From contig CAMOKF010000004.1 in the NCBI GenBank assembly GCA_946617625.1, forward strand, positions 1 to 55,215: a stretch of DNA of 55,215 bases, read 5' to 3'. Both the position numbers and the translations under genes were made by a program. The stretch is from an uncultured Bacillota bacterium. Its GTDB lineage: Bacteria; Bacillota_I; Bacilli_A; RF39; UBA660. Below are positions 8,453-30,087 of this stretch, piece by piece; the first letter of the stretch is position 1; each line of letters begins with the position of its first letter. A model generated the notes under the pieces. The model did no database searches. It was not told the origin of the DNA and worked only from the letters and a program-made list of their open reading frames with translations.

Positions 8453-8604
8453 AATCTTCATTTATTTAAAAAGTGAAATTACTTATATTTTTAGTTTTCT
8501 CATGTGTGTAAAATTGATACATTATAGACAAATTTTAATATTTTTATTTAATTTCTAGTTTTTTTATTTATATCTGTGGTAAAATTATAATAGAGGTGGA
8601 GACT

Positions 8605-9204
8605 ATGAGTGTACAAGTTGAAAACACAAGTAGTAAAAAGAAAATACTTGTTTTCTTGCTCTTATTTCTAATTTGTTTATTCTTGTTCCAGGAAGCTTAT
8701 GCTAAATATCGTAAGTTTGCTACTGTAAATGTTAATAATACAGTTGCTAATTGGAATATTAAAATAAATAATGAAGATATAAGAAATAAAACTACTCTTA
8801 CAAATAATATTACTCCTACAATTAATAGTAATGCTAATGTAAATGCTAATGTCTTAGCTCCAGGTAGCTCTGGTTACTTTGATGTAACAATTGATGCTAC
8901 TAATGCTGATGTTTCATTTACTTATGAGATAACAATAGATAGTTTAAATGCTTCTACAATAGAAGATTTGGATATAAATTCTTATGCAGTTAATGATTTC
9001 ACTAATGTACAAACTATATCAAATGGTGTTGTCAGTGGTACAATTACTCATAATACACCATCTACTGTTGTTCGAGTTTTCTTTAGTTGGATTGATGATG
9101 GTACTGATACAATGACTAATCAAGATGATACAGCAGCAGCTACTAGTGGTACTGCTAATGCTGATATTTTAGTTTCGTTCCACTTAACACAAGTAAGTAG
9201 TTAA
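8605..9204 (+). CDS. SipW-dependent TasA/camelysin-like secreted protein
   Basis: Hydrophobic N-terminus ending EAYAKYRKF; VANWNIKINNEDI and FFSWIDDG; start set at 8605 (GAGGTGG RBS); ORF track start 8596. Confidence 0.7.
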   Translation: MSVQVENTSSKKKILVFLLLFLICLFLFQEAYAKYRKFATVNVNNTVANWNIKINNEDIRNKTTLTNNITPTINSNANVNANVLAPGSSGYFDVTIDATNADVSFTYEITIDSLNASTIEDLDINSYAVNDFTNVQTISNGVVSGTITHNTPSTVVRVFFSWIDDGTDTMTNQDDTAAATSGTANADILVSFHLTQVSS

Positions 9205-9235
9205 AAAAAAGAAAGGTTTAAACCTTTCTTTTTTT
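9204..9235. terminator. bidirectional terminator shared by convergent TasA-like genes
   Basis: AAAAAAAGAAAGGTTTAAACCTTTCTTTTTTT perfect palindrome. Confidence 0.9.
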
Positions 9236-10001
9236 AGTTTCCTGTATTTTCTGCTTGTTCAGCTGTTAGTACTCCTTTTAGTTCTAAGCAGCTTTTATTA
9301 TTTGCATTTTGATATATTCCGCATTGTTCTCCTATATAGCTATCAATTTCATCTTTTTGTAAATATAGAGTGCTAGCTTTAGTTGCATAATTTGCACTAG
9401 TTACCGTTGAATCTACTGTATATGTACTTCCTTGTTTTATATAGTATGTTAATTCCTCATCAAAAGTAAATATTGATGGTACTTTAAAATAAGCACTATT
9501 ATCTTCATAATCCCAATTTACTGAGATTGTGAATGATTCATTTCCTTCTTCATCTAGTACATCACTTGATACATCATAAGTTATTTCAAATGGTAGTTCT
9601 GTTGCTAACATTACAATCTTATCATGTTCTTGCATGCTTTGTGTTATCATTTCTTGTCCAAATAATTTAACACTATTAGTTGTAAAATATAGACTGGCAG
9701 ATGTCTCACTGGAATTATTTACACTTAATGTATAAGAATACTCATCCATACCTGGATATATATCTACATTAAGATTTACATCTTTAACACTAGAGCCACC
9801 TTCAGAGAATACTACATCCCAACTTAAAACATGTAAGTCCATTGTTGTACTTACTTTTGAAATATAAATAAACCATGCGAAAACATTGAATACTAATAGA
9901 AATCCTATTAATAATATACTTCTTATTATTACCATCTTTCTATTTCTTTTGAAGTATTCTTTTTCTTCTGGAGTTAATTGTCGATTCATTAATTTCTTCA
10001 A
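9234..10001 (-). CDS. SipW-dependent-type secreted/membrane protein
   Basis: N-terminal TM followed by FAWFIYISKVSTTMDLHVLSWDVVF; beta-rich remainder. Confidence 0.6.
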   Translation of the reverse strand: MKKLMNRQLTPEEKEYFKRNRKMVIIRSILLIGFLLVFNVFAWFIYISKVSTTMDLHVLSWDVVFSEGGSSVKDVNLNVDIYPGMDEYSYTLSVNNSSETSASLYFTTNSVKLFGQEMITQSMQEHDKIVMLATELPFEITYDVSSDVLDEEGNESFTISVNWDYEDNSAYFKVPSIFTFDEELTYYIKQGSTYTVDSTVTSANYATKASTLYLQKDEIDSYIGEQCGIYQNANNKSCLELKGVLTAEQAENTGN

Positions 10002-10020
10002 TTTATCAACTCATTTCTAG

Positions 10021-10590
10021 TTAATCTTTTATTTCTATTAGTTCTTTCTTTTCTAATTTATTATCTATAATTGTTTCTGCTATTTCCATACATGCCATTA
10101 GTACTACAGGCACAAATACTAAAAAGAAGAATCCTGCTTGTGTCATTACTATGGCATTTATTGATGATATTATTGGTACTACTCCAACTACTTTTCCTAC
10201 TACTTGTTTAGTTGTAATAGGTGGATCTGATAAAGCATTATTAACACCTTTAGTAGTTATTTCTCTTACACCATTATTATCTTCTATTTTAATTATTCTA
10301 TGGGTAATAATCTTACCACCTAGTCCTAATTTTTCTCCTCTATAAGCAATGTCATCTCCAACTTTTAGAGTCGCTGTATCACAATCCTTTACAGCAATTA
10401 TATCATTAACTTTGTATACAGGCACCATACTTTCTGATGCAACATTGTACATTCTGTATCCGAATACACTTTTATTGCCAGAAAACCTTTGTATTAATAC
10501 TACTGCTATATATAGAGCAATAATTAGTATAAATATTACATCAATTATTGTTTTTATAGTTGTATATACTTTAAAACCTTTTCTTGTCAT
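10021..10590 (-). CDS. signal peptidase I, SipW (Ser/His) type
   Basis: VASESMVPVYKVNDIIAV (Ser box) and KIITHRIIKIED (His box); N- and C-terminal TM. Confidence 0.85.
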   Translation of the reverse strand: MTRKGFKVYTTIKTIIDVIFILIIALYIAVVLIQRFSGNKSVFGYRMYNVASESMVPVYKVNDIIAVKDCDTATLKVGDDIAYRGEKLGLGGKIITHRIIKIEDNNGVREITTKGVNNALSDPPITTKQVVGKVVGVVPIISSINAIVMTQAGFFFLVFVPVVLMACMEIAETIIDNKLEKKELIEIKD

Positions 10591-10591
10591 T

Positions 10592-11680: not shown

Positions 11681-11710
11681 ATCATCACCCCATTCTTATT
11701 CTAATTTATA

Positions 11711-13246
11711 CTATACCATTTTCTTAAGTCTTAATAGGTATTCTTTACATTCATTAAAATGTTCTTTACCAAATGCTTGATCTAGCCATTTAACGAAATC
11801 ATCTATTTCATCTCTTATGTAAGCTATATTTAATTGTTCAAATTTTCTAAATATTTTTCTTGCTATGAAGTAGTCAACTGCATCTACTTCTGTTCCACCA
11901 CATTCTATGAATGTAGCTACGAAATCTCTCATCTGCTTAACGATACGGTTACCGAAAGCTATACGGAAATGTTTAATAACATAATTATCCATATCTTCAA
12001 TTTTCTTTTCCATCTCAGCTGATAATTTATTTTTCTCTTTAGCTGCTTTAAATAATCCTTCTAGATATGAACTGTTAATATCTAATGAATCCATATCAAT
12101 AGGTTCAAATACTTGTCCTTTATCGTTGATATCTATTGGCATAGCACGGTCGTACACTTTATCTGTAACAGCAAATGTAGAGTCATCGTTATTGATTGTA
12201 CCGATATACCACATGTTACCAGGAATTTGTAATTTACCATTTTTTAATAGTTTTGGATCTGAATCCCATGTACTTGGAACTAACTCAATTATCCATTCAT
12301 CACGGCTAGGCATTTCTAGAATAGATAACATTTCTGCGAAATAATACTCGACACGGGCGATGTTCATTTCATCTAGTACAGTTACATATACATCATCTGT
12401 ATAATTTGCTTTATATAATCCTTTTAATACATCAGTTTCATTGAATTTTTTAGTAAATTCGTTGAAGTAACCAAAAAGTTCTGTTCTATCTCTCCATGAT
12501 GGTTGTACTGATGCGATAATGGCATCGTTCTTTATAAATTTACCCCAAGCATAAGCTAAGGAAGTTTTACCAGTACCAGAAATACCTTGTAGGATAACTA
12601 ATCTTGTACAGCTTAAACCTGAAATAAATAATCTAATCATATCACTTGTATAATATAGTCTTAATTTTGATGCTGCAAAGTTTCTAAAATGTTCAACTAA
12701 CTCTTGTAATGTGAATGTATTACCATAGTTAACTGGTTTATAATTAGCATACTCAACATCAATCTCATGTAATTTACTGAATCTGATATTAGATAAGTCA
12801 ACGTCTTTCTTCTCACCTTCAGATACATCTTCTTCATCAACTATATTAGCTTCATCTGGTTTAAGTCCTAATTGAGAAACTTTCATAGCTAGTATTTTAT
12901 CTTTTTCATTTGATAATTTAGCTACTTCTTTATTTAAGTTTCCAATTTCTTCTAACATAGATTCTTGTTCTACTAGTGTTTTTCTAAATCTTATGTACTT
13001 TCTTACTATGAACCATCCTAACAGAATAATTAGAGTTAGTATTACAGCTAATACTATGATTGCTATAACTACTAATATCCATTCTCCCATTTTGAAGTCT
13101 TCTCTATACATAGATATTACGTATCCGTATTCTCTTACATTGAACATTTGGATTACTCCTAGGATTATTCCTTTGAAAATGCCTAGGAAACCTTCAAAAA
13201 ACACGGACATGAATTCATATAGAAATCTTACAAATGTATCCATCAA
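11711..13246 (-). CDS. membrane-anchored McrB-like AAA+ ATPase
   Basis: Walker A LQGISGTGKTSLA, Walker B VTVLDEMNIARVEYYFAEML, GTINNDDSTFAVTDKVYDRA; N-terminal TM (MGEWILVVIAIIVLAVILTLIILLGWFIV) and short coiled coil. Confidence 0.85.
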   Translation of the reverse strand: MMDTFVRFLYEFMSVFFEGFLGIFKGIILGVIQMFNVREYGYVISMYREDFKMGEWILVVIAIIVLAVILTLIILLGWFIVRKYIRFRKTLVEQESMLEEIGNLNKEVAKLSNEKDKILAMKVSQLGLKPDEANIVDEEDVSEGEKKDVDLSNIRFSKLHEIDVEYANYKPVNYGNTFTLQELVEHFRNFAASKLRLYYTSDMIRLFISGLSCTRLVILQGISGTGKTSLAYAWGKFIKNDAIIASVQPSWRDRTELFGYFNEFTKKFNETDVLKGLYKANYTDDVYVTVLDEMNIARVEYYFAEMLSILEMPSRDEWIIELVPSTWDSDPKLLKNGKLQIPGNMWYIGTINNDDSTFAVTDKVYDRAMPIDINDKGQVFEPIDMDSLDINSSYLEGLFKAAKEKNKLSAEMEKKIEDMDNYVIKHFRIAFGNRIVKQMRDFVATFIECGGTEVDAVDYFIARKIFRKFEQLNIAYIRDEIDDFVKWLDQAFGKEHFNECKEYLLRLKKMV

Positions 13247-14265
13247 GCTTCCTCCTCATATATTACTATTCTATCATCAGTATCAGCATAACTAATTATA
13301 TCAGTTTCTCTCTTAGTTTTATAGCTAGTAACTATAAAAAATTCTATTGGTAGTGTCAATATAGTTGCAAACTTTTTATCTATATCATTTACATATGTCA
13401 TATCTCTATAGCATGAGATTTTAACTTTATTATTAAATACTCTATTTCTTGTAAATAATATTTCATCTGTTAGTCCAATACCTAGCTTTTTAATCATAAA
13501 TGTATTATTTACTATGTCTTTTATTTCACTGCATATGTCTCCATCAACTATAGCTGCATTTTCAAGTAATACTATATATCTTAGATCATCTTCATAACCC
13601 ATACATTTATCTTTTAATATTTTAAATGATAGTTTATTCAATATATTTATTGCTTTCTTAATATATAGTTTATTATCTTTATAAACTTGATTAACTAATG
13701 TCTTTCTATAACTATGAAGTACTTTAATGTCATAGTTCATATCAATTATGACTAAATTATTTTGTTTGTGAGTTGTTATTTGAAAGAACTCATCTAACTC
13801 AGTATCAAATATTTTATTTTCTTTGATAGTCATATTAGTAAATTCTTTAATAAACTGTTCTTTTTTACTCTTCTTTCCTAAGATAATACTTATAAATTGA
13901 TTTTTTGCTATTTCTTCTTCAAGTATTTGTCTTAGTTCATCTTTATCTTTATATATATTGTCTAAACAACATAAGAAATAAGCTACTTTTCTTAATTCTT
14001 TTATTTGTTTGGTATGTTCTTTATCATTTTCTACTAATTCTATCTCTAAGTTAGCAAATTCTTCTTTTAAAACTCCAAAAGAAAATGGTGTTCCATCTTC
14101 TACTGTTTCATATATATTATAAAATTTTGAATTAAAATAGTTGTCTATATATCTAGTAAGAACTTTATAGGATACTTCTTCTTGACTAGAGTTGTATAAT
14201 GTCATTCCTATTTTCTTTAGGTAATAGGTTTTAAATTTTCTATATGATTCTACTATATTGTTCAT
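13243..14265 (-). CDS. protein of unknown function (linked to McrB-like ATPase)
   Basis: Overlaps the AAA gene by 4 nt; no TM or motif recognised; probable start MNNIVESYRKF at 14265. Confidence 0.6.
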   Translation of the reverse strand: MNNIVESYRKFKTYYLKKIGMTLYNSSQEEVSYKVLTRYIDNYFNSKFYNIYETVEDGTPFSFGVLKEEFANLEIELVENDKEHTKQIKELRKVAYFLCCLDNIYKDKDELRQILEEEIAKNQFISIILGKKSKKEQFIKEFTNMTIKENKIFDTELDEFFQITTHKQNNLVIIDMNYDIKVLHSYRKTLVNQVYKDNKLYIKKAINILNKLSFKILKDKCMGYEDDLRYIVLLENAAIVDGDICSEIKDIVNNTFMIKKLGIGLTDEILFTRNRVFNNKVKISCYRDMTYVNDIDKKFATILTLPIEFFIVTSYKTKRETDIISYADTDDRIVIYEEEA

Positions 14266-14295
14266 TTCAACCACCAACTATCTATTCTCTACTAA

Positions 14296-14343: not shown

Positions 14344-15282
14344 TTAATCTCTTGCTAATACTACATCCACTGTAACTATTGAATTAGGATTTGTTATTGG
14401 ATATGTATAATTCAGAGATGGATTATTTTTATAAAAAATTATTTTCTTATTTGTTGCTGCATCAACTTTAAAAGTATATTTTGATACATAATTTTTACCA
14501 TTTATTGTTGTCTCTTGATATCCTGTTGATAATCTATTCTTAATTGATTCATCTGTTGAGTCTAATAATATTACATTTGGATCAAAGGTTAATGTTACTT
14601 TTGCTGAAAAGCATTTTGCTTTATTAGTATCAGATAAAGTTTCATATACTTCTTGTGAGATTGTATCTCCTACTGAGTAAGATCCAAATGCTTGTTCTAC
14701 TTCATAATATGCCATGGAGTTAGTTAAATTTAGATTTAATGCTAATTCTCCTGCAGCATCATCAATGTTATAAGTAAACTTACTGTTAACAACATTTAAT
14801 GTATATGTTGCTGAAAGTTCTTTTTCATAAGGATAAGTTGATCTTGCAATAGTTTTAAAACTAATTGATTCTCCTGCTGTAAAACTTACTTTAGGAGTTA
14901 TAGTTACTTGATAACTATCCGTATGTGACTCTTTTCTAATAGTTCCAGAATTTTTACTTGTTACGCATGTTAGTTTTGTATCATCACACTCAACAGTTAT
15001 TGTATACTCTATATCACTATTAGTATATCTTTCATCAGTCTTTTTATTACTAACATCTACTGTTACAAAGTATGTACTTATACCATCCCAGTTATTAATT
15101 TGATATTGTTTATTATTCATTGATAATACTGAACTATTAAAATAAAACTTTTTACTTTCTAGTATATAATTATTAATAATATTGTAGATATATTTAGCGT
15201 AGACTATTCCTACTATAAAAAATGCTACTAATACTAGTAATATTGAAGTACTTATTATTTTGTGTTTTCTAATAAACTTCAT
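14344..15282 (-). CDS. secreted protein with SipW-like signal region
   Basis: ISTSILLVLVAFFIVGIVYAKYIYN; beta-rich domains. Confidence 0.55.
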   Translation of the reverse strand: MKFIRKHKIISTSILLVLVAFFIVGIVYAKYIYNIINNYILESKKFYFNSSVLSMNNKQYQINNWDGISTYFVTVDVSNKKTDERYTNSDIEYTITVECDDTKLTCVTSKNSGTIRKESHTDSYQVTITPKVSFTAGESISFKTIARSTYPYEKELSATYTLNVVNSKFTYNIDDAAGELALNLNLTNSMAYYEVEQAFGSYSVGDTISQEVYETLSDTNKAKCFSAKVTLTFDPNVILLDSTDESIKNRLSTGYQETTINGKNYVSKYTFKVDAATNKKIIFYKNNPSLNYTYPITNPNSIVTVDVVLARD

Positions 15283-15293
15283 AGCTTTCTCCT

Positions 15294-15890
15294 TTATACT
15301 TTTTGTTCTGAATAAATTGCTACCTCTATATTTTCAGGTACACCAGCATATTGTAAATATGATTTATATATAGATGGATACTCTACTACTAATATATAAG
15401 TATCTTTTCTTCTTACATTATATTGAAATTCATAAGTTGGAGATTGATTGTATAATTTATACCAAGCTCCATCTTCATCATTAACTAATGTGTATCCATT
15501 AGCTATATTTGTTGCACTGTTACTATATTGTTCATTTCTTACTAATTTTAATGTTATTGGTAAATTAGTTGTTGTTTTTAATTGAATATAATATTTTAAA
15601 TTAATGTCTCCATTTTCAGAATCATTATAATTTGAAACTGTAAATGTATATTGATATGGTGTATCACTCGGTATAATAGCATCTGGATCTATATTAAAAG
15701 TTAATTTTTCATCTTTTAATAAATATATTGCTTTGTCTATATTTGCACTTAATTTAGCATTTGTTTCATATTTAGCATATGATTGTGCAAACAATGTACT
15801 TAGTAGTATGAAAAGTAAAAGAACTAATGTTACTTTTAATACATTTTTTACTCTGTCTTCTCCTATTATTCCAATAAGTTTATTAACCAT
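15294..15890 (-). CDS. SipW-dependent TasA-like secreted protein
   Basis: VLLLFILLSTLFAQSYAKYETNAKLSANIDKAIYLLKDEKLTFNI. Confidence 0.6.
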   Translation of the reverse strand: MVNKLIGIIGEDRVKNVLKVTLVLLLFILLSTLFAQSYAKYETNAKLSANIDKAIYLLKDEKLTFNIDPDAIIPSDTPYQYTFTVSNYNDSENGDINLKYYIQLKTTTNLPITLKLVRNEQYSNSATNIANGYTLVNDEDGAWYKLYNQSPTYEFQYNVRRKDTYILVVEYPSIYKSYLQYAGVPENIEVAIYSEQKV

Positions 15891-15901: not shown

Positions 15902-16489
15902 CTATTCATTATATTGTACTAATGTTTCTCCTGTATACTGTATTGCATTTAAATTTATTTCTACAAAACTATCACTTGTAGTTTCTTCATTATATTCTAT
16001 TAATGAACCATCATCTATCCATTCTAATACTAAAGTCAAATTCTTAATTGTTGATAAAGACGATTTATCAATAATTGTTGAATATGCAGATGGTCCTGTT
16101 CTAACTATTGTTAAATTACTTGATTCTATATCAGTTAATGTTAGATATTTTTCACTATCTATTGTTTTATCTTTTATAGAAAATGTAAGAAGAATAGCTA
16201 CATCACTGCTTGATGCATCTATTGTTACTGGATATGTCAAAACTGCTCCAGGTCCTACTTTTCCAGCTCTTATATTATTAAGAGTATTCATAGTATATGT
16301 TAAATCAATTGTATTTGAGTTATTAGTTATTTCTTGATTATTAACTTTTATTGACCAATTAGCTATATTATTATGAGCTGTTGCTGATACAATAGATTCA
16401 TATGCTCCTTGTGCTCCTCTAACTATTAGATAGGCAAAGCATAGAACTAATAAAAATATAATCATTGTTACTTTTCTTTTATCTTTCAT
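15902..16489 (-). CDS. SipW-dependent TasA/camelysin-like protein, paralogue of the 8605-9204 product
   Basis: FLLVLCFAYLIVRGAQGAYESIVS; NNIANWSIKVNNQEI and LEWIDDG shared with 8605-9204. Confidence 0.65.
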   Translation of the reverse strand: MKDKRKVTMIIFLLVLCFAYLIVRGAQGAYESIVSATAHNNIANWSIKVNNQEITNNSNTIDLTYTMNTLNNIRAGKVGPGAVLTYPVTIDASSSDVAILLTFSIKDKTIDSEKYLTLTDIESSNLTIVRTGPSAYSTIIDKSSLSTIKNLTLVLEWIDDGSLIEYNEETTSDSFVEINLNAIQYTGETLVQYNE

Positions 16490-16547: not shown

Positions 16548-16580
16548 AAAAAAAAATAAGGATTTTTGTCCTTATTTTTT
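16548..16580 (-). terminator. intrinsic terminator
   Basis: AAATAAGGA / TCCTTATTT stem (16554-16577) followed by a T run on minus strand. Confidence 0.8.
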
Positions 16581-17141
16581 TTCTTCTAATACTTCAATTT
16601 CATCAGCAAAGTCATTTTTCTCAAATTTTAGTAATACTATGAATGAATATACATGATATATAAAGATACACATCATTGGTAATAATACTAAGAATAGGAA
16701 TCCCATTTTAGACTCTAAAGCTTTTAATATCTTTCCTAGATGTCTATGAATTGAAATATAATTACCTATTACTTTTCTATCATTTACTGTTGATGTTTCT
16801 CCTACATTTTTAATATCTAATGAATAGATTTGACCGAATCCATCATCTTTAACTTCAGTTACAGGAGCTCTTTTAACATAATATTGATCATTAATAACAC
16901 TGTAGTAATATATAACACTACCAACTTGAATGTTTTTATCATTCTTTATTATTAATAAATCTCCTTGTTCTACTCCTTCTAATAAAGAGGCTTGCCCTTT
17001 ATTTACTTCTACTAAAGTATAATCTCCAAATTGTGTATATCCGTAATCATTAACAAATAGTAGACATCCTGTTAGGAAGATAACATATGCTATTATAATT
17101 ACTTCAATTATTCCTAAAATAAATGATCCCAATCTTTTCAT
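16572..17141 (-). CDS. divergent signal peptidase I-like protein with putative Ser/Lys dyad
   Basis: KGQASLLEGVEQGDLLIIK aligns with the Ser box at canonical spacing; DQYYVKRAPVTEV places Lys where SipW has His; N- and C-terminal TM. Confidence 0.6.
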   Translation of the reverse strand: MKRLGSFILGIIEVIIIAYVIFLTGCLLFVNDYGYTQFGDYTLVEVNKGQASLLEGVEQGDLLIIKNDKNIQVGSVIYYYSVINDQYYVKRAPVTEVKDDGFGQIYSLDIKNVGETSTVNDRKVIGNYISIHRHLGKILKALESKMGFLFLVLLPMMCIFIYHVYSFIVLLKFEKNDFADEIEVLEEKK

Positions 17142-20100: not shown

Positions 20101-23100
20101 TTTGCTGCTCCATAAACTACTGATGTATTAGCTCCACCATAGACATTTCGATAGATTGTTCCACCTACTATGTTTACTGTTGATGTTGCTGCTGTTTGTG
20201 AAGAACCTGTACCAGCAGAGTTTCCTGATCCAAAGACTGATCCATTAGGGGCAACTGATTCTGAAGTTCCTATTGTACTTGCTCCTTCTAATGTTACAGT
20301 AGTATTTCCTCTTACATATGCTTCGTTTCCTCCAGCATATAAACTTCCTGCAATTGAAGAATCTTTTACTTTGATATTTGCATTTCCTAGTACTTCTCCT
20401 TGATTTCCTCCACCGAAAGAGTTACCAGAAACACTAGCATTATTTATTGAAACTTCTGTATTAGTTTGAACATTTGCTCTATTTCCACCGCCATAGATAT
20501 TACCAAATGAACCGGCATTTACCTCTACATTTGTTTCTGTTACTGCTGCATAGTTTCCTCCACCGAATAAATCTGTAATTGTACCAGTGGTTACTTCTAC
20601 ATCAGTTGAACCTGTTACTGCTTTATATCCTCCACCATAAACAGAGTCAATATTTCCTTTTGTAATTAATACATTAGCAGTTACAGTATTTCCTCCGGCA
20701 TTATTTCCACCATATACTGAAGGTATATGTTGATTTGAATTGATTGTAACATTTGTCTCTGCTACAGTACCTAATTGGTTTGATCCTCCAAATACAGATT
20801 CTCCAATTGTTCCACCAGTTACATTTACATTAGTTGTTCCTGCTCCTACTTCGTTTCCTCCTCCGTAGATGCTTTGATTTGTTGTAGCTCCACTTACGTT
20901 AACATTTGCTGTTGTAGTGTTACCACCAATATTGTTAGCTCCAAATACATTTTGAACTGTACCTGAAGTAACTGTAACATTACTTGTAGTAATATCACCA
21001 CTTTCATTGGAACCACCATATACATTATTACTTATAGTTGCTCCTTGTAGATATATATTTGTTGTTGTTTGACCTGTATTATTTCCTCCTCCGAAAGCAT
21101 TACCTATAGTTCCTCCGTTTAAGTAAACTATATCTGTTCCGCTAGGACTTCCTACTAAGTCATTTCCACCAAATACTTTACCTATTGATCCACCATTTAC
21201 TGTTACTGTTATAGCACCATATTCTTTTGGAGTATAAGTGACATTATCTACTCTACCACCTTTACTACCTCCAAAAACATTATTTACAATTGTTCCTTTA
21301 TTTACTGTTACATTTGTTGTTTTAGAGTTAGTAAAGCTTCCGTTTTCTGTTGTTCCATTTACTGTACCAAAAGCTGATCCTCCATAGACATTTCCTTCAA
21401 TTTTAGGAATTGTTTGTAATGAAGTATCTCCTATTGTTACATTTACATTATCTCTTACATAAGTACCTGGATTATTATTATTTTGGTATCCACCTTCACC
21501 ACCACCGTAAACGTCAGTTTTTATTGTTCCACCATTTACATTTACATTAGTGCTTCCATAAATGACACCTTTAATATTTGATCCTCCAAATACTGAATTG
21601 TCTATTGTTCCACCATTTACTGTAACATTTACTGTAGCATTTACACTACTTGTTCCAGCTCCATTACGGTTTCCACCACCATAAACTGAACCATTAATTG
21701 TTCCGGCATAAACTCTGACATCTGTTGTTACTGCTCCACTTGTCTTACTTGCTCCAACAGCACCATAGTTTCCTCCTCCAAAGACACTTCCTTGGATTGT
21801 ACCGCCGTTTATAAGTACTCTAGAATTTCCAACTGATCCTATTGTTGAGACAGAGGAGTTACCATTTCCAGCACCGAATACATTTCCTGGCAATACTTCA
21901 AATAATCCTGTTGAGTTTCCACCTCCGATTAAGGCTTTTCCTCCTATGTAGACAAATGTATCACCATCTAGTGTACCTTTTCTACTATTTGATCCATCAC
22001 CACTATTACCATTGGATCCGCCGAATACACCATAGTTAACTTGTCCACCTGTTACTGCAACTATTCTGTTACCATATGTTTCAGATACTCCGGCTCCTCC
22101 TACTATAAGATCTACTTTTCCACCTTTAATGAATAAGTAAGAATCGTTCATAGTATTTCTAGAACTTGCTGAGAAGGCTCCACCAATTAAGTTATATATA
22201 TATCCACCTTCGACTATTACTTCTCTTGCGGCATAGTGTGTATTTCCTGTAGTACCACGGCCTCCTGCATAAATTCCACAAGAATAATTATTTTTACTAG
22301 TTCCATATGATCCACTTTTAACTATTTGAGTTACTGCTACTTTATTATCAGCATCACTTCTTAAGTTTCCTCCCCAGCCTCCAGCTGTTGAGTGATATAC
22401 ATGTAGATAATCATTATCTGTATCAATTCTGTCAAAGTCACATCCTAGAACTGCTACTCCATCTACATATTGATCTGTACTTGATTCGGCAGATCCACCA
22501 GTAACACTAATATTATTATATTTTCCACTTTCAACTATCATTTTATATCTTGTTAATGATGAACTTGATCCTGTTGATGATAAGTTTCCTGCCATTACAC
22601 TGTCAGCGTTAACTCGTGATGTGCTTGAAGGGAATTCGATTCCTCTTCCAATTTTAAAATTATGGTAGTTACCATATATATTTTCATATGTATTACTGCT
22701 TGGAGGTCCAGCATTATTAGATGCATCTGCATCTATATTACCTGATGTTGTTACATATTCTATTCTTAAATCTTCATTCGGAGAAATATATCCATTGTAT
22801 AAGTTTATACTTCCACTACTTCTATAATCGCTTCCTCCATAAAGTGATGTTATTGTCATTGGCTTTGTATTACGATATCTGCTGCTTGATCTATTTAGAG
22901 ATGCTCTTAATACAACTATATTAGTATCTCTTGTAGTTAAATAATATGTATTTGTATCTCCATTAGCTAAAGTATTTACTGTTCCATTAGTTGAATATGG
23001 AATTAATTGATAATATGTTTGATTATTTCCATTTCCAGAAGTTTGTAATTCTCCATTTTCATCATAGTATCCAGCTTTACTTCCACTTACTCTTACTGCT

Positions 23101-25040
23101 CTAAAGTATCCTGCTATAATATCTCCTGTATTTAGATAATTAGCAGTTACTGTATTGTATGTTACTGTAGATGCTCCATTATTATAATCTAATTCATAAT
23201 AAGTCTCATTTTCATCGTATTGTGATTCTGCTTGAATATAGTATGTACATGAACCCCACATAGAATTACATCTACCTGTTAATGGTTGACCATATTGATT
23301 ATATGCTCCATCTGGATATCTATTTCTAGTTGTTCTTCTTAGATAGTAAATACTGAAATCATCAGTTCCATAGTCTCTATAGGAATATGTTGTTTGAACC
23401 ATTCCCTCTGTAAAATCATCTTCTGCTGTTCCTAAAGTTTGAGATGAAGTCATTTGGTATATTTTTCCTTTAGTCCAAGATGCATACATAGTTATACTTG
23501 TTGCAACACTAGGATTTGATGGAGCTGGTATAGTTACATATCTATCATAAGTATCCATATCAATACTTACTTCTGCTCCGGTATAATCTGTAATCCATCC
23601 ATTAAACATTAGCTCTGACCCGTTTTCCATTGGTCTTTTTGCATATGGATTATCTATTAAAGGTATTTTTACTTTTCCATTTTCTATTGGATAATATTTG
23701 TAATATATAAAGTTTTTATAATTATCTGCATTACTTACATATCCTATTCTATTAGTATGATCTATACTTGCTCCAGAATATTTAATATATATTTTTGCTA
23801 AATTTGATGTTGTATATAAATTTTTATTTGTAAAGTTTGGTATCGTGTTTTCTTCTTTAAAGTCAACGTAATTTTGTCCTTCATAATAATCCCAATCAGA
23901 TTGAAGATCATTTATGTATACAGTACCAGTTGAAGATTCTTTTCCTGTTGCATGTAATGCTATTGGAGTAGAACCTCCAGGCATTGTTGGACCTGTTGCA
24001 GGTTCTGTTTGAGGTTCTTCTTCTTCAGGTTCTTTGACTGCTAATATAATTTGATTATTCTCAGATTTCCACTCATAATCTGTAAGATTTAAATTAAATG
24101 CATCTATTACTGATTGCTCAGTTACTTCTGTTTCTCCTAAGTAATATTTTGATTCTTTGTATTCATAGATATTTGTTAAAGTTTGTTCGTTCTCTTCGTT
24201 GATTTTCTGTAATTCGTTTTCACTTTCTATACTATAAATAACATTTGTAAGAGGAGATTCTGTACTTCTTGTAATCATAGATGCATTAGCAACTGTAGTT
24301 ACTGCCATTTCTCCATATATACTTACATTTTTAATAGTATAGTCTTCTCCAATAATTCCAATGAATCCAGCTACATTACTGTTTTCTGTTAATTCCATTT
24401 CTGATACATCAATATTTATATTTCTTATGGAAATATTACTTAAAGAGTTTGGAGTTCCAGAATCATTTGTTAAAGCTCCGGCTAGAGCTCCAACATCTAC
24501 ATTACCAGTTCCAGTAACTGTAATAGTCATTCCATCTATATTTAAATTATTAATTGTTGCATTATTTAAATGTCCAAACAACCCAAAATAATCTGTTTTT
24601 ATTTCTTCAGTTCCTGTAGGTTCTGTACCTTCTCCACTTTCTTCTGCCAGACTTTCTCCTGTTACAACAGCATTCTTAATTGTATTTCCATTTCCTTCAA
24701 TGTGTCCTGCGAATGGAGTCTCTGTTCCTATAGGAGCTAATGCATGGCTTCCTAAGTTTATATCTTTTGTTATTGAGTAATATAGAGTACTATAGCTAAT
24801 TGCCTCTGTTCCAGACATTACTTTTTGTAAGTAAGCTAGCTCGTTTCCGTTTGATATTAAATATGGGTTATCTTGTGTACCATTTCCTCCACCAAATCCT
24901 GTTGCAATAGTTGTACCATCCCATATTTCATTTGTTTCATCTCCTAATGCAGCTCGATTAGTGTAGATAAAAAAGAAGGCCACACTCAAAACTGCAAGAA
25001 AAACAATTGTTACAATTATTGTTAATACTTTCTTTTTCAA
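17175..25040 (-). CDS. giant secreted repeat protein (probable beta-helix surface/adhesin-like protein)
   Basis: 2621 aa; N-terminal TM/signal; GLUG-like N-terminal region; FNGWITDYTG...ITMYASWTKGK InlB B-repeat-like segment; about two dozen [FY]GG(G/S)N-type repeats; no LPXTG or C-terminal TM seen. Confidence 0.8.
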   Translation of the reverse strand: MKKKVLTIIVTIVFLAVLSVAFFFIYTNRAALGDETNEIWDGTTIATGFGGGNGTQDNPYLISNGNELAYLQKVMSGTEAISYSTLYYSITKDINLGSHALAPIGTETPFAGHIEGNGNTIKNAVVTGESLAEESGEGTEPTGTEEIKTDYFGLFGHLNNATINNLNIDGMTITVTGTGNVDVGALAGALTNDSGTPNSLSNISIRNINIDVSEMELTENSNVAGFIGIIGEDYTIKNVSIYGEMAVTTVANASMITRSTESPLTNVIYSIESENELQKINEENEQTLTNIYEYKESKYYLGETEVTEQSVIDAFNLNLTDYEWKSENNQIILAVKEPEEEEPQTEPATGPTMPGGSTPIALHATGKESSTGTVYINDLQSDWDYYEGQNYVDFKEENTIPNFTNKNLYTTSNLAKIYIKYSGASIDHTNRIGYVSNADNYKNFIYYKYYPIENGKVKIPLIDNPYAKRPMENGSELMFNGWITDYTGAEVSIDMDTYDRYVTIPAPSNPSVATSITMYASWTKGKIYQMTSSQTLGTAEDDFTEGMVQTTYSYRDYGTDDFSIYYLRRTTRNRYPDGAYNQYGQPLTGRCNSMWGSCTYYIQAESQYDENETYYELDYNNGASTVTYNTVTANYLNTGDIIAGYFRAVRVSGSKAGYYDENGELQTSGNGNNQTYYQLIPYSTNGTVNTLANGDTNTYYLTTRDTNIVVLRASLNRSSSRYRNTKPMTITSLYGGSDYRSSGSINLYNGYISPNEDLRIEYVTTSGNIDADASNNAGPPSSNTYENIYGNYHNFKIGRGIEFPSSTSRVNADSVMAGNLSSTGSSSSLTRYKMIVESGKYNNISVTGGSAESSTDQYVDGVAVLGCDFDRIDTDNDYLHVYHSTAGGWGGNLRSDADNKVAVTQIVKSGSYGTSKNNYSCGIYAGGRGTTGNTHYAAREVIVEGGYIYNLIGGAFSASSRNTMNDSYLFIKGGKVDLIVGGAGVSETYGNRIVAVTGGQVNYGVFGGSNGNSGDGSNSRKGTLDGDTFVYIGGKALIGGGNSTGLFEVLPGNVFGAGNGNSSVSTIGSVGNSRVLINGGTIQGSVFGGGNYGAVGASKTSGAVTTDVRVYAGTINGSVYGGGNRNGAGTSSVNATVNVTVNGGTIDNSVFGGSNIKGVIYGSTNVNVNGGTIKTDVYGGGEGGYQNNNNPGTYVRDNVNVTIGDTSLQTIPKIEGNVYGGSAFGTVNGTTENGSFTNSKTTNVTVNKGTIVNNVFGGSKGGRVDNVTYTPKEYGAITVTVNGGSIGKVFGGNDLVGSPSGTDIVYLNGGTIGNAFGGGNNTGQTTTNIYLQGATISNNVYGGSNESGDITTSNVTVTSGTVQNVFGANNIGGNTTTANVNVSGATTNQSIYGGGNEVGAGTTNVNVTGGTIGESVFGGSNQLGTVAETNVTINSNQHIPSVYGGNNAGGNTVTANVLITKGNIDSVYGGGYKAVTGSTDVEVTTGTITDLFGGGNYAAVTETNVEVNAGSFGNIYGGGNRANVQTNTEVSINNASVSGNSFGGGNQGEVLGNANIKVKDSSIAGSLYAGGNEAYVRGNTTVTLEGASTIGTSESVAPNGSVFGSGNSAGTGSSQTAATSTVNIVGGTIYRNVYGGANTSVVYGAAKVNIGTAAVNKNGLEEESILIKGTVFGGGESNASGSPTYDYTAISVTQEIDININGEGYTENSHTFKLEGSIFGSGNASSSSGTSSIYIKKLGTLASPSENVSIQRTQNLTIDESVIHLTGAKDTTNKYSDDLYSFSLIGKRLAQDSSIGGLTIKNNTTLLLDYNANQLVSFTSAVDVEEGGVVTQKVAEVNINDETKLVTKNVDNRVYMLANKNLNVALDEDATEYGKVTGMTFFGMYRNSAGNITQTGVYNCSNYTYGTSSSASDLVIGSSYVLGQHTTNHDITKDGFYTNYLDEETNYNVVRTAYIQPTPDNTNYYRWQIGTESIEYEFIMTASKYLSMGTHALSLIDFPNGDTKFTVLQFDDSEFQNDLTLVDESQVPKFARVGSDESKKFGLNMKSETTEWTGFKKTSFLSANGGSYTGDQVYLTNSEAGAASLMFYLYHAKNIEMEGDLGTLKITMEAETPKNGYEMDVKIVTIKINIVAQAHNDGDQYDASITYGKKYSMPITTAVNITPKSQFTEYFSLISNSQQTEVYGTNLDNYRTLVSSYVLPVGTTITMLDVSRETPKYYYYEVDSTNYQQKVNQLSVDHEVTYKLSDFLAMDTTTSSNKYSDLTMNNAYYDDDLGMAYEEFLFIFDFKGANITSAQLDNEMLFEMRNSQDRTTISVLEKRLEDRAMVFNIHTTSNIALSQTVTTANKNYYYDSPNTTIYTSEVAYTTGGSNIKVIDTNYEASCMGVNIQFFNSEGNSVSSSMLSGTKITINNVDYFVDSDGVFRIKLADKVTRLTRNLNITVDSLLPAGNYTVKYSIIASSDGLHSSELDTHTYTENIQVVSANNEITVDNHDKTKIFYSDTGLNELGENTNSYVIKYRSSLNNTNLRLSVYKRKINRYDTTEYEEVDHTTVISTSLARTMSSTYPYEVTIPFGTSPRSVSLEINSNAPSGTYKLVFKLCDGDQVVDTDEAYLIVKKQVVSN
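19860..22200 (-). repeat. intragenic repeat region encoding tandem [FY]GG(G/S)N units
   Basis: Units such as TNVNVTGGTIGESVFGGSNQLG and TNVEVNAGSFGNIYGGGNRANV recur across about 780 aa; boundaries approximate. Confidence 0.8.
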
Positions 25041-25057
25041 GTGTACCTCCTTACTAA

Positions 25058-26332
25058 TTAGTAATTATTAATTTCTACTAATTTCTTTTCTCTATTTAGA
25101 TCTAAGTTATCGTTTTTATTGTATTTTTTTGATACTCTTTCTATAAATGCAATTAGTTCTTTTAATTTTTTCTTATCATATTTTTCTTTTACTACTACAA
25201 ATGAATTATTCTTATCTATAAGTATTTTATATTTTAGTATCTTGAATACTCCATCAAAGAAATTCTCATCATTATATAGTATTGCTATAAATAAGATTTT
25301 TAAGAATGCATAGATTGGTAAATCATAAATCTTATTTCTTAATTCTTTATATAATCCAATCTTATCGATATCATAATCAAACAATTCTTTAAATGGAACT
25401 TCATTTATTTCTTTATCAAGTAAATCATATCTTCCATTTTGTAGATGTAGACATAATCTATAAATATATTTATATTTCTTTTGCCATTCTTTTGTAAGAT
25501 GTGTTGTTTCTAATTGACCATTATTAACTTTAAGTACTACATCAACTATATTGTAAATATCTTCTTCTTTCTTTTCTCTATCTTGTGTAACTACTTTAAT
25601 ATCATCATTTTCAGCATCAAGTACTTCTATTTCATCATCTTCTAGAACTTCTAGGCTATCTGATACTTTTTGCTCTTTTTCTAACTTCTTTCTTAAACTT
25701 TTCAATTCACTTAGTGGAATTGTTATTGTTAGTCCAGAATGTTCATTATAATTATTTCTATCTTGTGGACTACAGAAGATATCTTGCGGTAGAACTTCTT
25801 TATATTCTCTTTTGATCTCAGGTTCTACTGCTTTTTCTTCCTCCTTTAAATCTTCTTTCTTAAATAACTTTTTAAAGAATCCATCAAAGTTAAGTAAGGC
25901 AATTACAATTAATATTATAAATACTAGTACTACAAATTCTAATAAGAATTTAGGAGATACTACAAATACTATTTTACCTATGATATCATTTTTGGTAATT
26001 GCTTTATCATATGTATCATTTGCATCACCTTTTGTTACAAATTTATCTCCTGTTTTTTGTATTAATCGGTGAGTTACTATCGACTTCTCACTTTTATAAG
26101 CAATGATATCATCAACATTAACTTCTTTAGTAATATCAACTAAAACTATATCATTTACTTCTATTTCACCTGACATAGATCCACTTACTACTACGAAATA
26201 TGTGTAACCAAAAATATTAACATAATCTTTATGTAGAATATCTAAACATACAAATACGTAGCAACATAAACCTACTAAAAAGATTAAAAATGTATAAAAT
26301 ATGTACTTAAAAATTGCTTTTATCTTTTTCAT
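25058..26332 (-). CDS. SipW-type signal peptidase I with about 270-aa C-terminal extension
   Basis: VVVSGSMSGEIEVNDIVLV and KSIVTHRLIQ (Ser/His); second TM then long charged tail; start MKKIKAIF at 26332 (ORF track 26338). Confidence 0.8.
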   Translation of the reverse strand: MKKIKAIFKYIFYTFLIFLVGLCCYVFVCLDILHKDYVNIFGYTYFVVVSGSMSGEIEVNDIVLVDITKEVNVDDIIAYKSEKSIVTHRLIQKTGDKFVTKGDANDTYDKAITKNDIIGKIVFVVSPKFLLEFVVLVFIILIVIALLNFDGFFKKLFKKEDLKEEEKAVEPEIKREYKEVLPQDIFCSPQDRNNYNEHSGLTITIPLSELKSLRKKLEKEQKVSDSLEVLEDDEIEVLDAENDDIKVVTQDREKKEEDIYNIVDVVLKVNNGQLETTHLTKEWQKKYKYIYRLCLHLQNGRYDLLDKEINEVPFKELFDYDIDKIGLYKELRNKIYDLPIYAFLKILFIAILYNDENFFDGVFKILKYKILIDKNNSFVVVKEKYDKKKLKELIAFIERVSKKYNKNDNLDLNREKKLVEINNY

Positions 26333-26360
26333 AAACACGACTCCATTTTATTCTCTTTTA

Positions 26361-26369: not shown

Positions 26370-26380
26370 TATAACCATTA

Positions 26381-26403
26381 AAAAAGGAAACCATAGTTTC
26401 CTT
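26381..26403 (-). terminator. intrinsic terminator
   Basis: AAGGAAAC-TATG-GTTTCCTT plus T tract on minus strand after the 26412 CDS stop. Confidence 0.85.
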
Positions 26404-26411
26404 ATTTTTTA

Positions 26412-28043
26412 TTAAATTATTTCTGTATCTAATGGTTTAATTTTATTATAATCACAAATGAATTTAATATTCTCCATAGATAAAATATTATTCTCAATAT
26501 TTTGGATTAAATAAATTAAAGATACATCATTTAAAAGAGAGTCAATTCCATCTTTACTTACTTTTTCAGTAGAAATATTTAGTCCTAAAAGCTTATATTT
26601 ATTGCTTACAGTTTCAGTAATATCTAATTTGTTAAATACAAATATTCCATCTAAGAAATTACCATTAGGATCATAAACAAAGTCTATATAATCATCTATT
26701 TCCTTTTCAATATCAACATTTAATTCTTCTTTATTTATTTCTTTTAGAGCTCTATCTAAATATGAGTAAGAAGATAATGCCACATTAAATAATTCATGGA
26801 CATTAGATCCATCTTTAATATTTGCATCTAAGTTCATAGATATTTTAGCTTCATCATAAGTAGTAAAATCAGTCATTATCTTATCAAATAGCTCATTCAT
26901 TTTTACTTTATTGATGTTTTGCTTATCTATATTTTCTTTTGCAAATAAACCTTTCCCACAACTTTTTTGATATTCTTTATATAGTTTATCTTTATCTTTG
27001 TTATCTTTATCTAGTTCTTTTTCAATATTTTGGAATGTTGTTTTAATATTAGCTCTAGCATTATACTTTTCTACTAAATCTGTAACTATAAACTCATATT
27101 TATAGTATTTCTTTAATATTTTCAAAGTATTATATAAATCTATTATATTATCTTTAAATTTAAGCTTATCTTCTACTGATAAATCTTGATATGATCCTGT
27201 TACTACAAAGGAATCATAGATTTTATTTCTAGTAGCAGAATCTCTTAAGTAATTATCAATATTATGCTTACCTTGTAAGAAGTCTCTTAAAATATTATAA
27301 TCATCATTTTCAATATCTTCTTCTAGAGATTTTCTAGAAAGGGTATATACTTCTTCAATATTCTTTAATTCTACTTCATTTTCTTTTGTTAATTCATCTT
27401 CACGTGTTTTTATATATGATTTTATTTGCTTTTCATATTTTTTTAGTATTGTTAATAGGTTTTGTCTTATTTCTAATACTATTTCTGGACATTCCCAATA
27501 TACTTTTTCAAACTTCTTCTTTCTTTCATTTTGATCAGTTGTTTCAAAGTATGTATTGAAATAATCTTCTGTAAACATAGTATATTTAAAGTCTTCTATG
27601 TTTAATGTGATATTCATTACTTCAAAACTTTTTTGGAATTTATCTAAAATTATATTAAGTTCACTCAAAGATGTTTCTTCTTTTATTGCATATATCAAAT
27701 CATAGAATCCAAGTTTAAAATTATTACTCATAAACTTATTAGTATATATAAGTAAATCTTGTAATTTCTTTAATTTTTCTTTTCTTTCTTCATAATTAGC
27801 ATTTTTATTTAGAGGTAATAATACATTACATCTATTTTCTAACTCTACTAGTACCTTTTTCTTGTAGTCTTCATAAATATCTATTTTTTCTCTTACGTAG
27901 GCATTTCTACCTTCAACAGCTTCTTTATGAAATTTCTTTTTTAATGCTTTTGTCCCACTTTTTCTTTCTAATTCAAAATTATCAATATAATCATTTATTG
28001 AGGAGATATCTAATACTAAATTACTTTCATCAACTTTGCTCAT
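26412..28043 (-). CDS. large charged, probably coiled-coil cytosolic protein of unknown function
   Basis: 543 aa, Lys/Glu-rich helical composition, no TM; inside the surface locus. Confidence 0.65.
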   Translation of the reverse strand: MSKVDESNLVLDISSINDYIDNFELERKSGTKALKKKFHKEAVEGRNAYVREKIDIYEDYKKKVLVELENRCNVLLPLNKNANYEERKEKLKKLQDLLIYTNKFMSNNFKLGFYDLIYAIKEETSLSELNIILDKFQKSFEVMNITLNIEDFKYTMFTEDYFNTYFETTDQNERKKKFEKVYWECPEIVLEIRQNLLTILKKYEKQIKSYIKTREDELTKENEVELKNIEEVYTLSRKSLEEDIENDDYNILRDFLQGKHNIDNYLRDSATRNKIYDSFVVTGSYQDLSVEDKLKFKDNIIDLYNTLKILKKYYKYEFIVTDLVEKYNARANIKTTFQNIEKELDKDNKDKDKLYKEYQKSCGKGLFAKENIDKQNINKVKMNELFDKIMTDFTTYDEAKISMNLDANIKDGSNVHELFNVALSSYSYLDRALKEINKEELNVDIEKEIDDYIDFVYDPNGNFLDGIFVFNKLDITETVSNKYKLLGLNISTEKVSKDGIDSLLNDVSLIYLIQNIENNILSMENIKFICDYNKIKPLDTEII

Positions 28044-28161
28044 TTTTTGGCTCCTCTTCTTCTTCTACTATAATACTATCTTTTAAGTGGTTTATTTCTT
28101 GATCTACTTTTTCATATATTTCAAGTAATTCTTCATTATTAAATATATTTAATTCATCCAT
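28030..28161 (-). CDS. small acidic ORF, absent from the supplied ORF track
   Basis: MDELNIFNNEELLEIYEKVDQEINHLKDSIIVEEEEEPKNEQS (43 aa, TGA stop); AGGAG RBS 7-8 nt upstream; overlaps the start of the 543-aa gene by 14 nt. Confidence 0.6.
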   Translation of the reverse strand: MDELNIFNNEELLEIYEKVDQEINHLKDSIIVEEEEEPKNEQS

Positions 28162-28177
28162 ATTTTCACTCCTCTAG

Positions 28178-28204
28178 AAGAAAAGACCTTCTTTATGAAG
28201 GCCT
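28178..28204 (-). terminator. intrinsic terminator/attenuator inside the surface operon
   Basis: AGGCCTTC-ATAAA-GAAGGTCT then TTTCTTC on minus strand. Confidence 0.75.
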
Positions 28205-28223
28205 TGATTATATTTATTATATA

Positions 28224-29255
28224 TTAAACTAATACGAAGTTCATATTATAAGTAATAGCGTCTCCAGATGCTGTATTTTCACAATCTACGTCTTGACCTT
28301 CAATCCATAGATAGAATCTTACTTTTGTAATACCTGCATCTAAAGAGAACCAGTTTTGATCTGCTGTTAATGCTCCATCAGGTGTTTTTAATGTTGGAGT
28401 AACTGATTTAAAGTTAGTTCCAATTGGGTTACTTGATGAACCTAAATCTTTTAAGCTTACTCCTGTTGATAATACTGCATCTACACCATAATAACTAGCT
28501 ATTTGTTGATTACTTGTAACTGATAAGTTATAAGTAGATAATGCATCTGCTATAGCCGCATCAGTATGTACGTTGTTATTTGGTTCCCAGATAATCAAAT
28601 CTTGTCCACCACCAATACCTTGAATAGTTGAAGCATTTGATCCAATAGTAGCTTTTCCTAATTTAATAAATGCTGCACGAGCTGCATTCTTTAATCCTCT
28701 GTTAGTAGCTCCTGCAGAAGCACTTACTTCAGATCCAGTTCCTAATTTAACTGTTGAGTTTTGAGTTACCATGAAGAATAAGTCGAAAGCAACGAAATCT
28801 CCTTTATCACCTTTTGCTTCAGTAGATTTAGTAGATTTTAATATTGTATTACCTCCAGCGTCACTTGCTAATTCTCCTAAATACATATTTAATTTATCAT
28901 TTGCTATAGTTCCTCCAGTTGATACTGGTTTAACTGTAGCAGCAGTTCCTGAGTTATTATTTGTTCTAAATGGTAATTGATTTGTGTTTGTTGTATACAA
29001 TGTTGATGCTCCTAATGTTGAATTTAAATCAGCATTAGTAATAATTGTTTTCCAGTTAACTCCGTCAACTGATACTTGAATACCATTAGCTGTAGCTACT
29101 TGTACATCGATTGCTTCAACAGTTATTGTTTTATTTGAAGTGAACCATGCATAAGTATTAGCAGTTAAGATTATTCCTGTGAATACTACTAGTAATAATG
29201 CTAGTAAAATTTTTCTTCTTCTTCTTTTGTCTTTCTTTTTTTCTTGCTTAGTCAT
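28224..29255 (-). CDS. SipW-dependent TasA-like protein (possible major subunit)
   Basis: KILLALLLVVFTGIILTANTYAWFTSNKTITVEAIDVQVATA; C-terminal YLWIEGQDVDCENT. Confidence 0.7.
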   Translation of the reverse strand: MTKQEKKKDKRRRRKILLALLLVVFTGIILTANTYAWFTSNKTITVEAIDVQVATANGIQVSVDGVNWKTIITNADLNSTLGASTLYTTNTNQLPFRTNNNSGTAATVKPVSTGGTIANDKLNMYLGELASDAGGNTILKSTKSTEAKGDKGDFVAFDLFFMVTQNSTVKLGTGSEVSASAGATNRGLKNAARAAFIKLGKATIGSNASTIQGIGGGQDLIIWEPNNNVHTDAAIADALSTYNLSVTSNQQIASYYGVDAVLSTGVSLKDLGSSSNPIGTNFKSVTPTLKTPDGALTADQNWFSLDAGITKVRFYLWIEGQDVDCENTASGDAITYNMNFVLV

Positions 29256-29257
29256 GT

Positions 29258-29977
29258 TTAAGCTCCTCCCTTTCCTGTTCCTGAAACATGTTCTTCAGTT
29301 ATATCCATGTGCATTTTAATTTCTCCTCCAAGGAGATCATTTAAGCACTCTGGATCGTCTCCTTCAATCCATACTACTATTGTAAATCGATCTTTCGTAT
29401 TAGGCTTGAAATTCTTTCTTTGTTCCAATAAAGCGACGTCCTTAGAATAAAATTTCTTTGTACCTTCCTCTGCTCCACCATTTTTAGCGGCTTTTGCATA
29501 GATAGTAGGTTTACCATTTAGATATACCATTATTCTAATTGCTTCATCTACATTTCTTATAGTGTCGTCTATATCTAACTCATACCAATAATGTACTGCT
29601 TCTTTTCCATTATTTACGACATAAAAACTGTAAGCAATATAATTATCTCCGTTATGGGATCCATTAGCCTCAGTATCAAGATTATCTGGTAACCATTTTA
29701 CTGATATGTTATCCATATACTCAATGGTTTCCGCAGATAACTTTCTTGTTTTACTGTTCTGCTCACCTGTTTCTGTCAAAAATATGTTCTTTCTATTAGA
29801 CATATTCTTATCTAAAGAAACTGTAAATCGTCCACCTTTATAGGCAACATATAAAAATAGATATATAGTAGATATTATAATTAGCAATAATAGTAATGTG
29901 ACTTTAACTATTCTGACTACAAGTTTTCGCTTGTAAATCTTATTGGCTTTTATACCAATTCCATTTCCATCATTCAT
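29258..29977 (-). CDS. secreted TasA-like partner protein
   Basis: N-terminal TM, C-terminal VVWIEGDDPECLND related to the 28224 product; likely start MNDGNGIGIK at 29977 (ORF track 30001). Confidence 0.6.
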   Translation of the reverse strand: MNDGNGIGIKANKIYKRKLVVRIVKVTLLLLLIIISTIYLFLYVAYKGGRFTVSLDKNMSNRKNIFLTETGEQNSKTRKLSAETIEYMDNISVKWLPDNLDTEANGSHNGDNYIAYSFYVVNNGKEAVHYWYELDIDDTIRNVDEAIRIMVYLNGKPTIYAKAAKNGGAEEGTKKFYSKDVALLEQRKNFKPNTKDRFTIVVWIEGDDPECLNDLLGGEIKMHMDITEEHVSGTGKGGA

Positions 29978-29996
29978 ACCATCACCACACCGTAGC

Positions 29997-30058
29997 TGCA
30001 ATATTCTATTTTTTATACAATAAGTATATCTTAATTTTTTGAAGAGTGCAATATTCTA
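29997..30058. repeat. pair of 12-bp direct repeats flanking a promoter
   Basis: TGCAATATTCTA at 29997-30008 and again at 30047-30058, exactly 50 bp apart. Confidence 0.85.
30023..30051 (-). promoter_or_regulatory. sigmaA-type promoter for the surface operon
   Basis: TTGCAC-N17-TATACT on minus strand; the -35 overlaps one direct repeat. Confidence 0.75.
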
Positions 30059-30087
30059 AATATAATTTTTTTTAATTTTTTTATTTA

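Follow-up and report, generated by a model that had tools for sequence, protein, structure and literature searches.

McrB-type GTPases are known from DNA restriction, and DUF2357 is the part of McrC that activates McrB. A form in which McrB is fused to an FtsB-like membrane and coiled-coil segment, the McrC homologue carries a coiled coil as well, and signal peptidases are associated, has been named CoCoPALM in two sentences of a 2024 paper (PMC11090510), and passages of the same paper describe an NxD variant of the GTPase motif for CoCoNuT and CoCoPALM; a search of the accessible literature by name found no later papers on CoCoPALM. Here we describe a locus that fits CoCoPALM in the DNA of an uncultured Bacillota bacterium (assembly GCA_946617625.1, contig CAMOKF010000004.1, positions 1 to 55,215; this whole stretch of 55,215 nucleotides is called the window). 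It is an operon-like island of 21.6 kb, with 14 genes on the minus strand and one divergent gene, and we read it with moderate confidence as a surface-fibre or adhesin assembly system carried on a relocating island and driven or gated by a membrane-bound McrBC-like motor.

Other described systems resemble parts of the island. TasA fibres assemble by donor-strand exchange (PMC9674648), and according to a passage of PMC10269814 an aromatic residue two positions past the cut site (P2′) makes TasA depend on the signal peptidase SipW and resist LepB, and is required for SipW-type cleavage. SipA of Streptococcus pyogenes is an inactive signal-peptidase relative that is essential for pilus polymerisation (PMC4049620), and FimX acts on the pilus ATPase PilB (PMC5595344).

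With CoCoPALM the island shares a McrB GTPase of the NxD kind, preceded by a membrane helix and a likely coiled coil, a McrC-like partner and signal-peptidase neighbours, whereas TasA-like subunits, a pseudo-peptidase, the cytosolic protein C344 and its fusion, EAL proteins and giant proteins are unmentioned in the two sentences of PMC11090510. A first-pass annotation of this DNA knew of no description of such a combination; the link between McrB, a membrane coiled coil and signal peptidases had, however, been named in that source. The TasA/SipW (CalY/CapP) fibres of Bacillus are similar in the TasA-like fold predicted for one subunit, the SipW-type Ser-His peptidase and the aromatic P2′, but the island is far richer in subunits and adds a giant repeat protein, two further peptidases, one of them inactive, and a nucleoside triphosphatase (NTPase). 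We know of no NTPase part in the Bacillus tasA operon. As with SipA (PMC4049620), an inactive signal-peptidase relative is encoded in the operon; the streptococcal system, however, uses a sortase, whereas no sortase was found in the island, whose inactive protein belongs to the SipW/endoplasmic reticulum (ER)-type S26 family. In the pair FimX-PilB (PMC5595344), the gene of a degenerate GGDEF-EAL receptor accompanies that of a cytosolic NTPase for fibre assembly. This recalls the EAL genes of related loci, but the motor is of McrB and not PilB type, there is no type IV pilin, and C344 is EAL-like by model only. McrBC Type IV restriction shares the McrB GTPase domain and DUF2357; it differs in that no nuclease was found here, a membrane anchor replaces the DNA-binding domain, and the motif is NxD instead of NxxD.

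The island lies between uvrA (ending at 8461) and a radical-SAM gene (starting at 30088), and its intergenic gaps are mostly below 100 bases. In four related genomes (L149, L150, L151 and L152) the genes uvrB, radical-SAM and uvrA stand together, in the arrangement uvrB-(laccase)-radicalSAM-uvrA, and the island is absent. In two congeners a related locus is found elsewhere, after genes resembling tsf and frr (L158) or beside WXG100-like genes (L155). As four relatives have the site without the locus and two congeners have a related locus elsewhere, it is an island that changes its chromosomal place; its ends are very close to the coordinates of the first-pass annotation, which match the insertion, and all the genes listed there were present. 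The WXG100/LXG-like genes of L155 (7207-10908, congener G001) resemble type VII secretion. The host is a draft genome of 1.19 Mb, 82.75% complete, and its nearest public relatives are uncultured Bacilli, of which many were sampled in gut or rumen. Against plasmids, the AAA protein gave only partial AAA-domain matches below 60% identity, none spanning 80% of the query.

Gene order was compared in 80 loci fetched from the GTDB collection, nearly all genomes compared being drafts and gene calling being mechanical, and most loci keep the same order. The distances of the AAA and DUF2357 proteins correlate with r=0.91 and those across the locus with r 0.64-0.92, values that none of 200 permutations reached and that shared descent alone also raises. 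An AAA match was present in 148 of 397 sampled genomes of the class Bacilli, not all of this type. For 44 loci outside the home family, chosen by hand among the AAA hits and flanked by 5 kb or more on both sides, DUF2357 was found in 42, S26 in 37 and TasA/TYAWF-like subunits in 35; at least one of S26, a subunit or a giant membrane protein accompanied the motor in 42/44. The signal-peptidase association of CoCoPALM is thus seen both in these loci and in the island, with its three S26-like proteins. The McrB-like and DUF2357 genes, which might have moved apart from the SipW/TasA-like genes, stay with them across many genera and families. Chance neighbourhood was rejected on the grounds of synteny and distance correlation.

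Some loci depart from this arrangement. Tandem membrane-anchored AAA-DUF2357-AAA genes with giant membrane proteins of 700-2200 amino acids (aa) occur in L129, L138, L141, L142, L159, L183 and L190. In L130 (10055-19000) and L181 a giant of ~2500 aa is accompanied by a membrane-anchored GGDEF-EAL protein that is strongly degenerate, by AAA and by DUF2357, and there are no S26 or TasA-like genes. The divergent loci L139, L145 and L146 have TasA-like small exported proteins and an S26-like protein, then AAA, then ABC-transporter-like genes. In G170, G119, G221, G110 and other genomes there are at least two AAA copies, ~15 kb apart or elsewhere, which suggests more than one fibre system per cell.

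The AAA+ protein, taken alone, matched the NCBIfam McrB model PRK11331, and its family profile, which contained one canonical McrB row, matched McrB structures in the PDB with E 8.5e-24. Its signature, N-x-D followed by D or E, is conserved among relatives (NNDE in one of them) and is that of the NxD GTPases. The N-terminus is formed by a membrane helix and a likely coiled coil, and a hydrophobic membrane segment was observed in nearly all relatives examined; this segment gave a weak FtsL match in NCBIfam (E 0.038). The true start of the gene is probably the ATG at 13243. Both the membrane-anchored McrB-like ATPase and the DUF2357-like protein of the first-pass annotation are therefore borne out by these matches. 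In the latter only DUF2357 was found: no PD-(D/E)xK or other nuclease domain was detected with Pfam or NCBIfam, scans that a hidden degenerate fold might escape, and its C-terminal part has a helical look. Sequence-level searches of the PDB gave no convincing match for the subunits, the DUF2357 protein or C344. The PADLOC candidate defence model PDC-M26A matched the AAA domain with E 3.4e-38.

Seven small proteins with N-terminal membrane signals had been reported; all are there, five with the listed signal ends and a sixth ending in FAWF. The iterated profile of the 202-aa protein reached the 195-, 198- and 255-aa proteins over at least 150 residues (E 1.8e-35 to 9.9e-25), and related profiles join the 312-, 343- and 247-aa proteins to the set, so that the small exported proteins appear to be mostly one family. 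No TasA or camelysin model of Pfam or NCBIfam matched the subunits of the window, and the SipW-signal match of the 343-aa protein was below threshold. Structure prediction, which had been proposed as a check, gave for the 202-aa protein a model whose sole PDB match below E 1e-3 was the TasA fibre 8aur (probability 1.00); archaeal bundling pili came at rank 26. The predicted fold is TasA-like, and the assignment stops short of TasA. An aromatic residue at P2′ of the cut sites predicted from sequence is a conserved column in the subunit families. The secreted repeat protein of 2621 aa is real as well, and had no match in Pfam, NCBIfam or the PDB.

Of the three S26 peptidases that had been annotated, three S26-like proteins of one family were recovered by iterated search, but the one at 16572-17141 lacks the catalytic residues. 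It reached TIGR02228 only with E 1.2e-3, below the cut-off. In relatives of the 10021-10590 peptidase Ser is kept in 96/96 and His in 94/96, and both residues are present in all 24 relatives of the 426-aa peptidase; two of the three thus look active, judging by their residues. Three active peptidases are ruled out, 16572-17141 being a conserved pseudo-peptidase. The inactive paralogue appears to be specific to the lineage of the window, since in other families of Bacilli nearly all the peptidases checked retain Ser and His, as far as the sequences cover these positions.

The AAA gene follows C344 immediately in 104 of the 106 members found, and in the window the two frames overlap by 4 bases. 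In two congeners it forms the C-terminal part of a fusion with an N-terminal signal peptidase that has the SM...H residues (L155:17555-19642 and L158:2339-4342; in L155, E 3e-69 for C344 and 4e-31 for S26), which suggests that C344 and the signal peptidase are physical partners. No C344-like C-terminus was found in the 426-aa peptidase of the window, and no tail of this kind on peptidases from the nearest other families. When the AlphaFold2 model of C344 was compared with the PDB, EAL proteins filled the first 13 places (E 6e-4 to 6e-2), and the Pfam EAL profile matched one of 52 members (E 0.014); Pfam, EAL included, gave no match to the C344 of the window. From the models, descent of C344 from EAL is likely but unproven.

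EAL proteins are found near the motor in 24 of the 44 distant loci, two of them in 20, and ten tested with Pfam were all above the EAL cut-off (E 5.5e-69 to 5.9e-8). In L130, L181, L140 and L024, of which L140 and L024 come from a single genome, it is the EAL gene that stands immediately before the motor. One member of the usual pair keeps every catalytic residue examined; the other keeps most of them, but in its DD motif the second Asp, or the sequence around it, is lost, a pattern that would be expected of receptors such as FimX. A hand count in 25 genomes gave 121 EAL matches, of which ~57 lie no more than ~13 kb from a copy of the motor, where only few were expected, although most of these genomes had been chosen for EAL genes in the locus and 24/44 is the fairer figure. 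Cyclic di-GMP (c-di-GMP) probably controls such fibre systems in other lineages. The genome of the window and five congeners have one GGDEF match each; that of the window (G000:C23:5979-6407) lies in a 679-aa frame, as long as a GdpP-type c-di-AMP phosphodiesterase would be. Considering that there is no EAL match and one GGDEF match, c-di-GMP control has probably been lost in this lineage, and C344 is unlikely to be an active c-di-GMP phosphodiesterase there.

The features are listed in Table 1. The gene of the 543-aa protein adjoins that of the giant protein or of the 343-aa subunit in some related loci.

Table 1. Features of the island, with positions in the window (pLDDT, predicted local distance difference test; AF2, AlphaFold2).
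Feature	Position	Strand	Evidence
Island between uvrA and radical-SAM gene	8462..30087		Site empty in L149-L152
TasA-like subunit, 202 aa, end AYAKY, divergent	8596..9204	+	AF2 pLDDT 89.9; Foldseek TasA fibre 8aur E 1.9e-4
Same-superfamily subunit, 255 aa, end FAWF	9234..10001	-	Iterated profile of 202-aa protein E 9.9e-25
SipW/ER-type signal peptidase, 189 aa, Ser54/His97	10021..10590	-	TIGR02228 E 4.5e-23; predicted active from residues
DUF2357 McrC-like activator, 362 aa	10592..11680	-	PF09823 E 2e-10; no nuclease family matched
Membrane-anchored McrB-type GTPase, 511 aa	11711..13246	-	PRK11331 E 8.6e-6; PDB McrB; N352-x-D354 conserved
C344, cytosolic, EAL-like predicted fold, directly before motor	13243..14277	-	AF2 pLDDT 91.8; EAL tops PDB list
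Exported protein, 312 aa, YAKY end, conserved	14344..15282	-	Partial-length relationship to 198-aa subunit
TasA-like-family subunit, 198 aa, YAKY end	15294..15890	-	Profile of 202-aa protein E 4e-28
TasA-like-family subunit, 195 aa, GAYE end	15902..16489	-	Profile of 202-aa protein E 1.8e-35
Pseudo signal peptidase of the S26 fold family that has lost its catalytic Ser/His	16572..17141	-	Pair absent in 60/61 relatives
Giant secreted protein, 2621 aa, ~25-residue G/T/N-rich repeats (..VNGGTI..VFGG..)	17175..25040	-	No LPxTG motif
S26 signal peptidase, 426 aa, long cytosolic tail	25058..26338	-	TIGR02228 E 3.7e-15; predicted active from residues
Cytosolic protein, 543 aa, family not recognised	26412..28043	-	In 16 sequences of locus set; no Pfam match
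Subunit, 343 aa, TYAWF end	28224..29255	-	TIGR04088 17.2 bits vs cut-off 19; related to 255-aa protein E 2.8e-30
Membrane-signal protein, 247 aa	29258..30001	-	Related to C-terminal half of 343-aa subunit, E 1.6e-46

Taking these results together, the subunits would be inserted as precursors held by their signal anchors, the Ser-His peptidases would cleave these precursors where P2′ is aromatic, and the pseudo-peptidase may hold precursors or subunits, as proposed for SipA in streptococcal pili. The subunits would then join into fibres by donor-strand exchange in the manner of TasA, with the giant protein carried on them or anchored by them. The DUF2357 protein would switch on a McrB-type hexamer, which would spend NTP from the cytosolic side and either release subunits or gate the peptidase or assembly site; this mechanical role of the motor we infer. 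The gene before the motor may encode its regulator or linker. In several other lineages this would be an EAL protein of the c-di-GMP receptor kind; in the island it would be C344, a degenerate EAL-like protein that two congeners carry as a fusion with the peptidase.

The assembly system is argued for by the conserved order, the co-evolution and class-wide association of the genes, the TasA fibre as top match, the residue pattern of the peptidases, the C344-peptidase fusion, the EAL proteins in 24/44 loci, the aromatic P2′ and the clean ends of the island. A dedicated fibre/matrix or adhesin export and assembly system had been proposed at first pass; the gene association and the TasA-like fold speak for it, but only two of the S26 proteins look active, and export and assembly are what we infer from these genes. 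Several results weigh against the reading. To our knowledge, the TasA fibres of B. subtilis need no NTPase, which leaves the need for a motor unexplained. The template modelling score (TM-score) of the 202-aa model to TasA is low (0.35); displacement of a donor strand, and the signal helix included in the model, would both lower it. The TM-scores of C344 to EAL proteins are also low (0.28-0.47), and the profile-profile comparison of the two with hhalign was not significant, EAL being the best of seven profiles. The tandem group has giant proteins but no S26 genes in the vicinity; it falls into a single clade of weak support. No EAL match turned up in the genome of the window or in five congeners, so that direct control by c-di-GMP does not hold for that genome. 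A fuller version is more tentative, and we regard it as possible rather than probable: the locus would stand for a distinct class of surface-fibre machine in bacteria, in which a membrane McrBC-type GTPase ring would power or gate TasA-like assembly under c-di-GMP through EAL proteins encoded next to it, and C344 would be what is left of the receptor, now tied to the signal peptidase, in lineages whose c-di-GMP signalling has been lost.

It is also conceivable, if unlikely, that the motor serves quality control or turnover of adhesins, the AAA+ ring extracting or clearing stalled signal-anchored precursors and not powering assembly. AAA+ rings commonly extract proteins from membranes, and here the membrane anchor, the coiled coil and the C344-peptidase fusion put the motor near the peptidase; for McrB-type rings, however, we know of nucleotide-driven DNA translocation and not of protein extraction. 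That TasA fibres assemble by donor-strand exchange (PMC9674648) agrees with such a role, while the tandem loci have giant proteins without peptidases nearby. Slightly less credit is due to a defence function, in which the McrB/DUF2357 pair would act at the membrane as kin of Type IV restriction or of the CoCoNuTs, with the surface proteins linked to it as a barrier or as cargo. The PDC-M26A match and the absence of the island from some close relatives agree with it, and passages of PMC11090510 count McrBC and the CoCoNuTs among defence systems, established or predicted; but the DUF2357 protein showed no nuclease domain, scans of the island proteins with Pfam and NCBIfam found no methyltransferase, HEPN or other nuclease gene, the DUF2357, C344 and 543-aa proteins had no PADLOC match, and the partners across families are exported proteins and peptidases. 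Mere neighbours in a hot spot where a fibre operon and a McrBC-like pair coincide, already disfavoured and very improbable, would accord with the different chromosomal sites of the island, but not with a pair placed mid-operon with the same neighbours across genera and families, with correlated protein distances (r 0.64-0.92), or with a C344 that overlaps the AAA frame by 4 bases and is fused to a peptidase.

Returning to the assembly system, what is new here is the TasA-like fold and family of the subunits, as predicted, the conserved pseudo-peptidase, the C344 fusion with its EAL-like model, and the association of these genes throughout the Bacilli. Automatic defence annotation may tag these fibre loci as anti-phage systems, given the PDC-M26A match. 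The locus suggests that a motor of the DNA-defence type was reused to build or control surface fibres. A membrane-anchored McrB-type GTPase at the centre of fibre operons would give a concrete role to CoCoPALM, named but so far undescribed, and would tie together subjects that have been treated separately: TasA-type matrix fibres, peptidases and pseudo-peptidases as assembly factors, and the control of the surface by c-di-GMP in Gram-positive bacteria.

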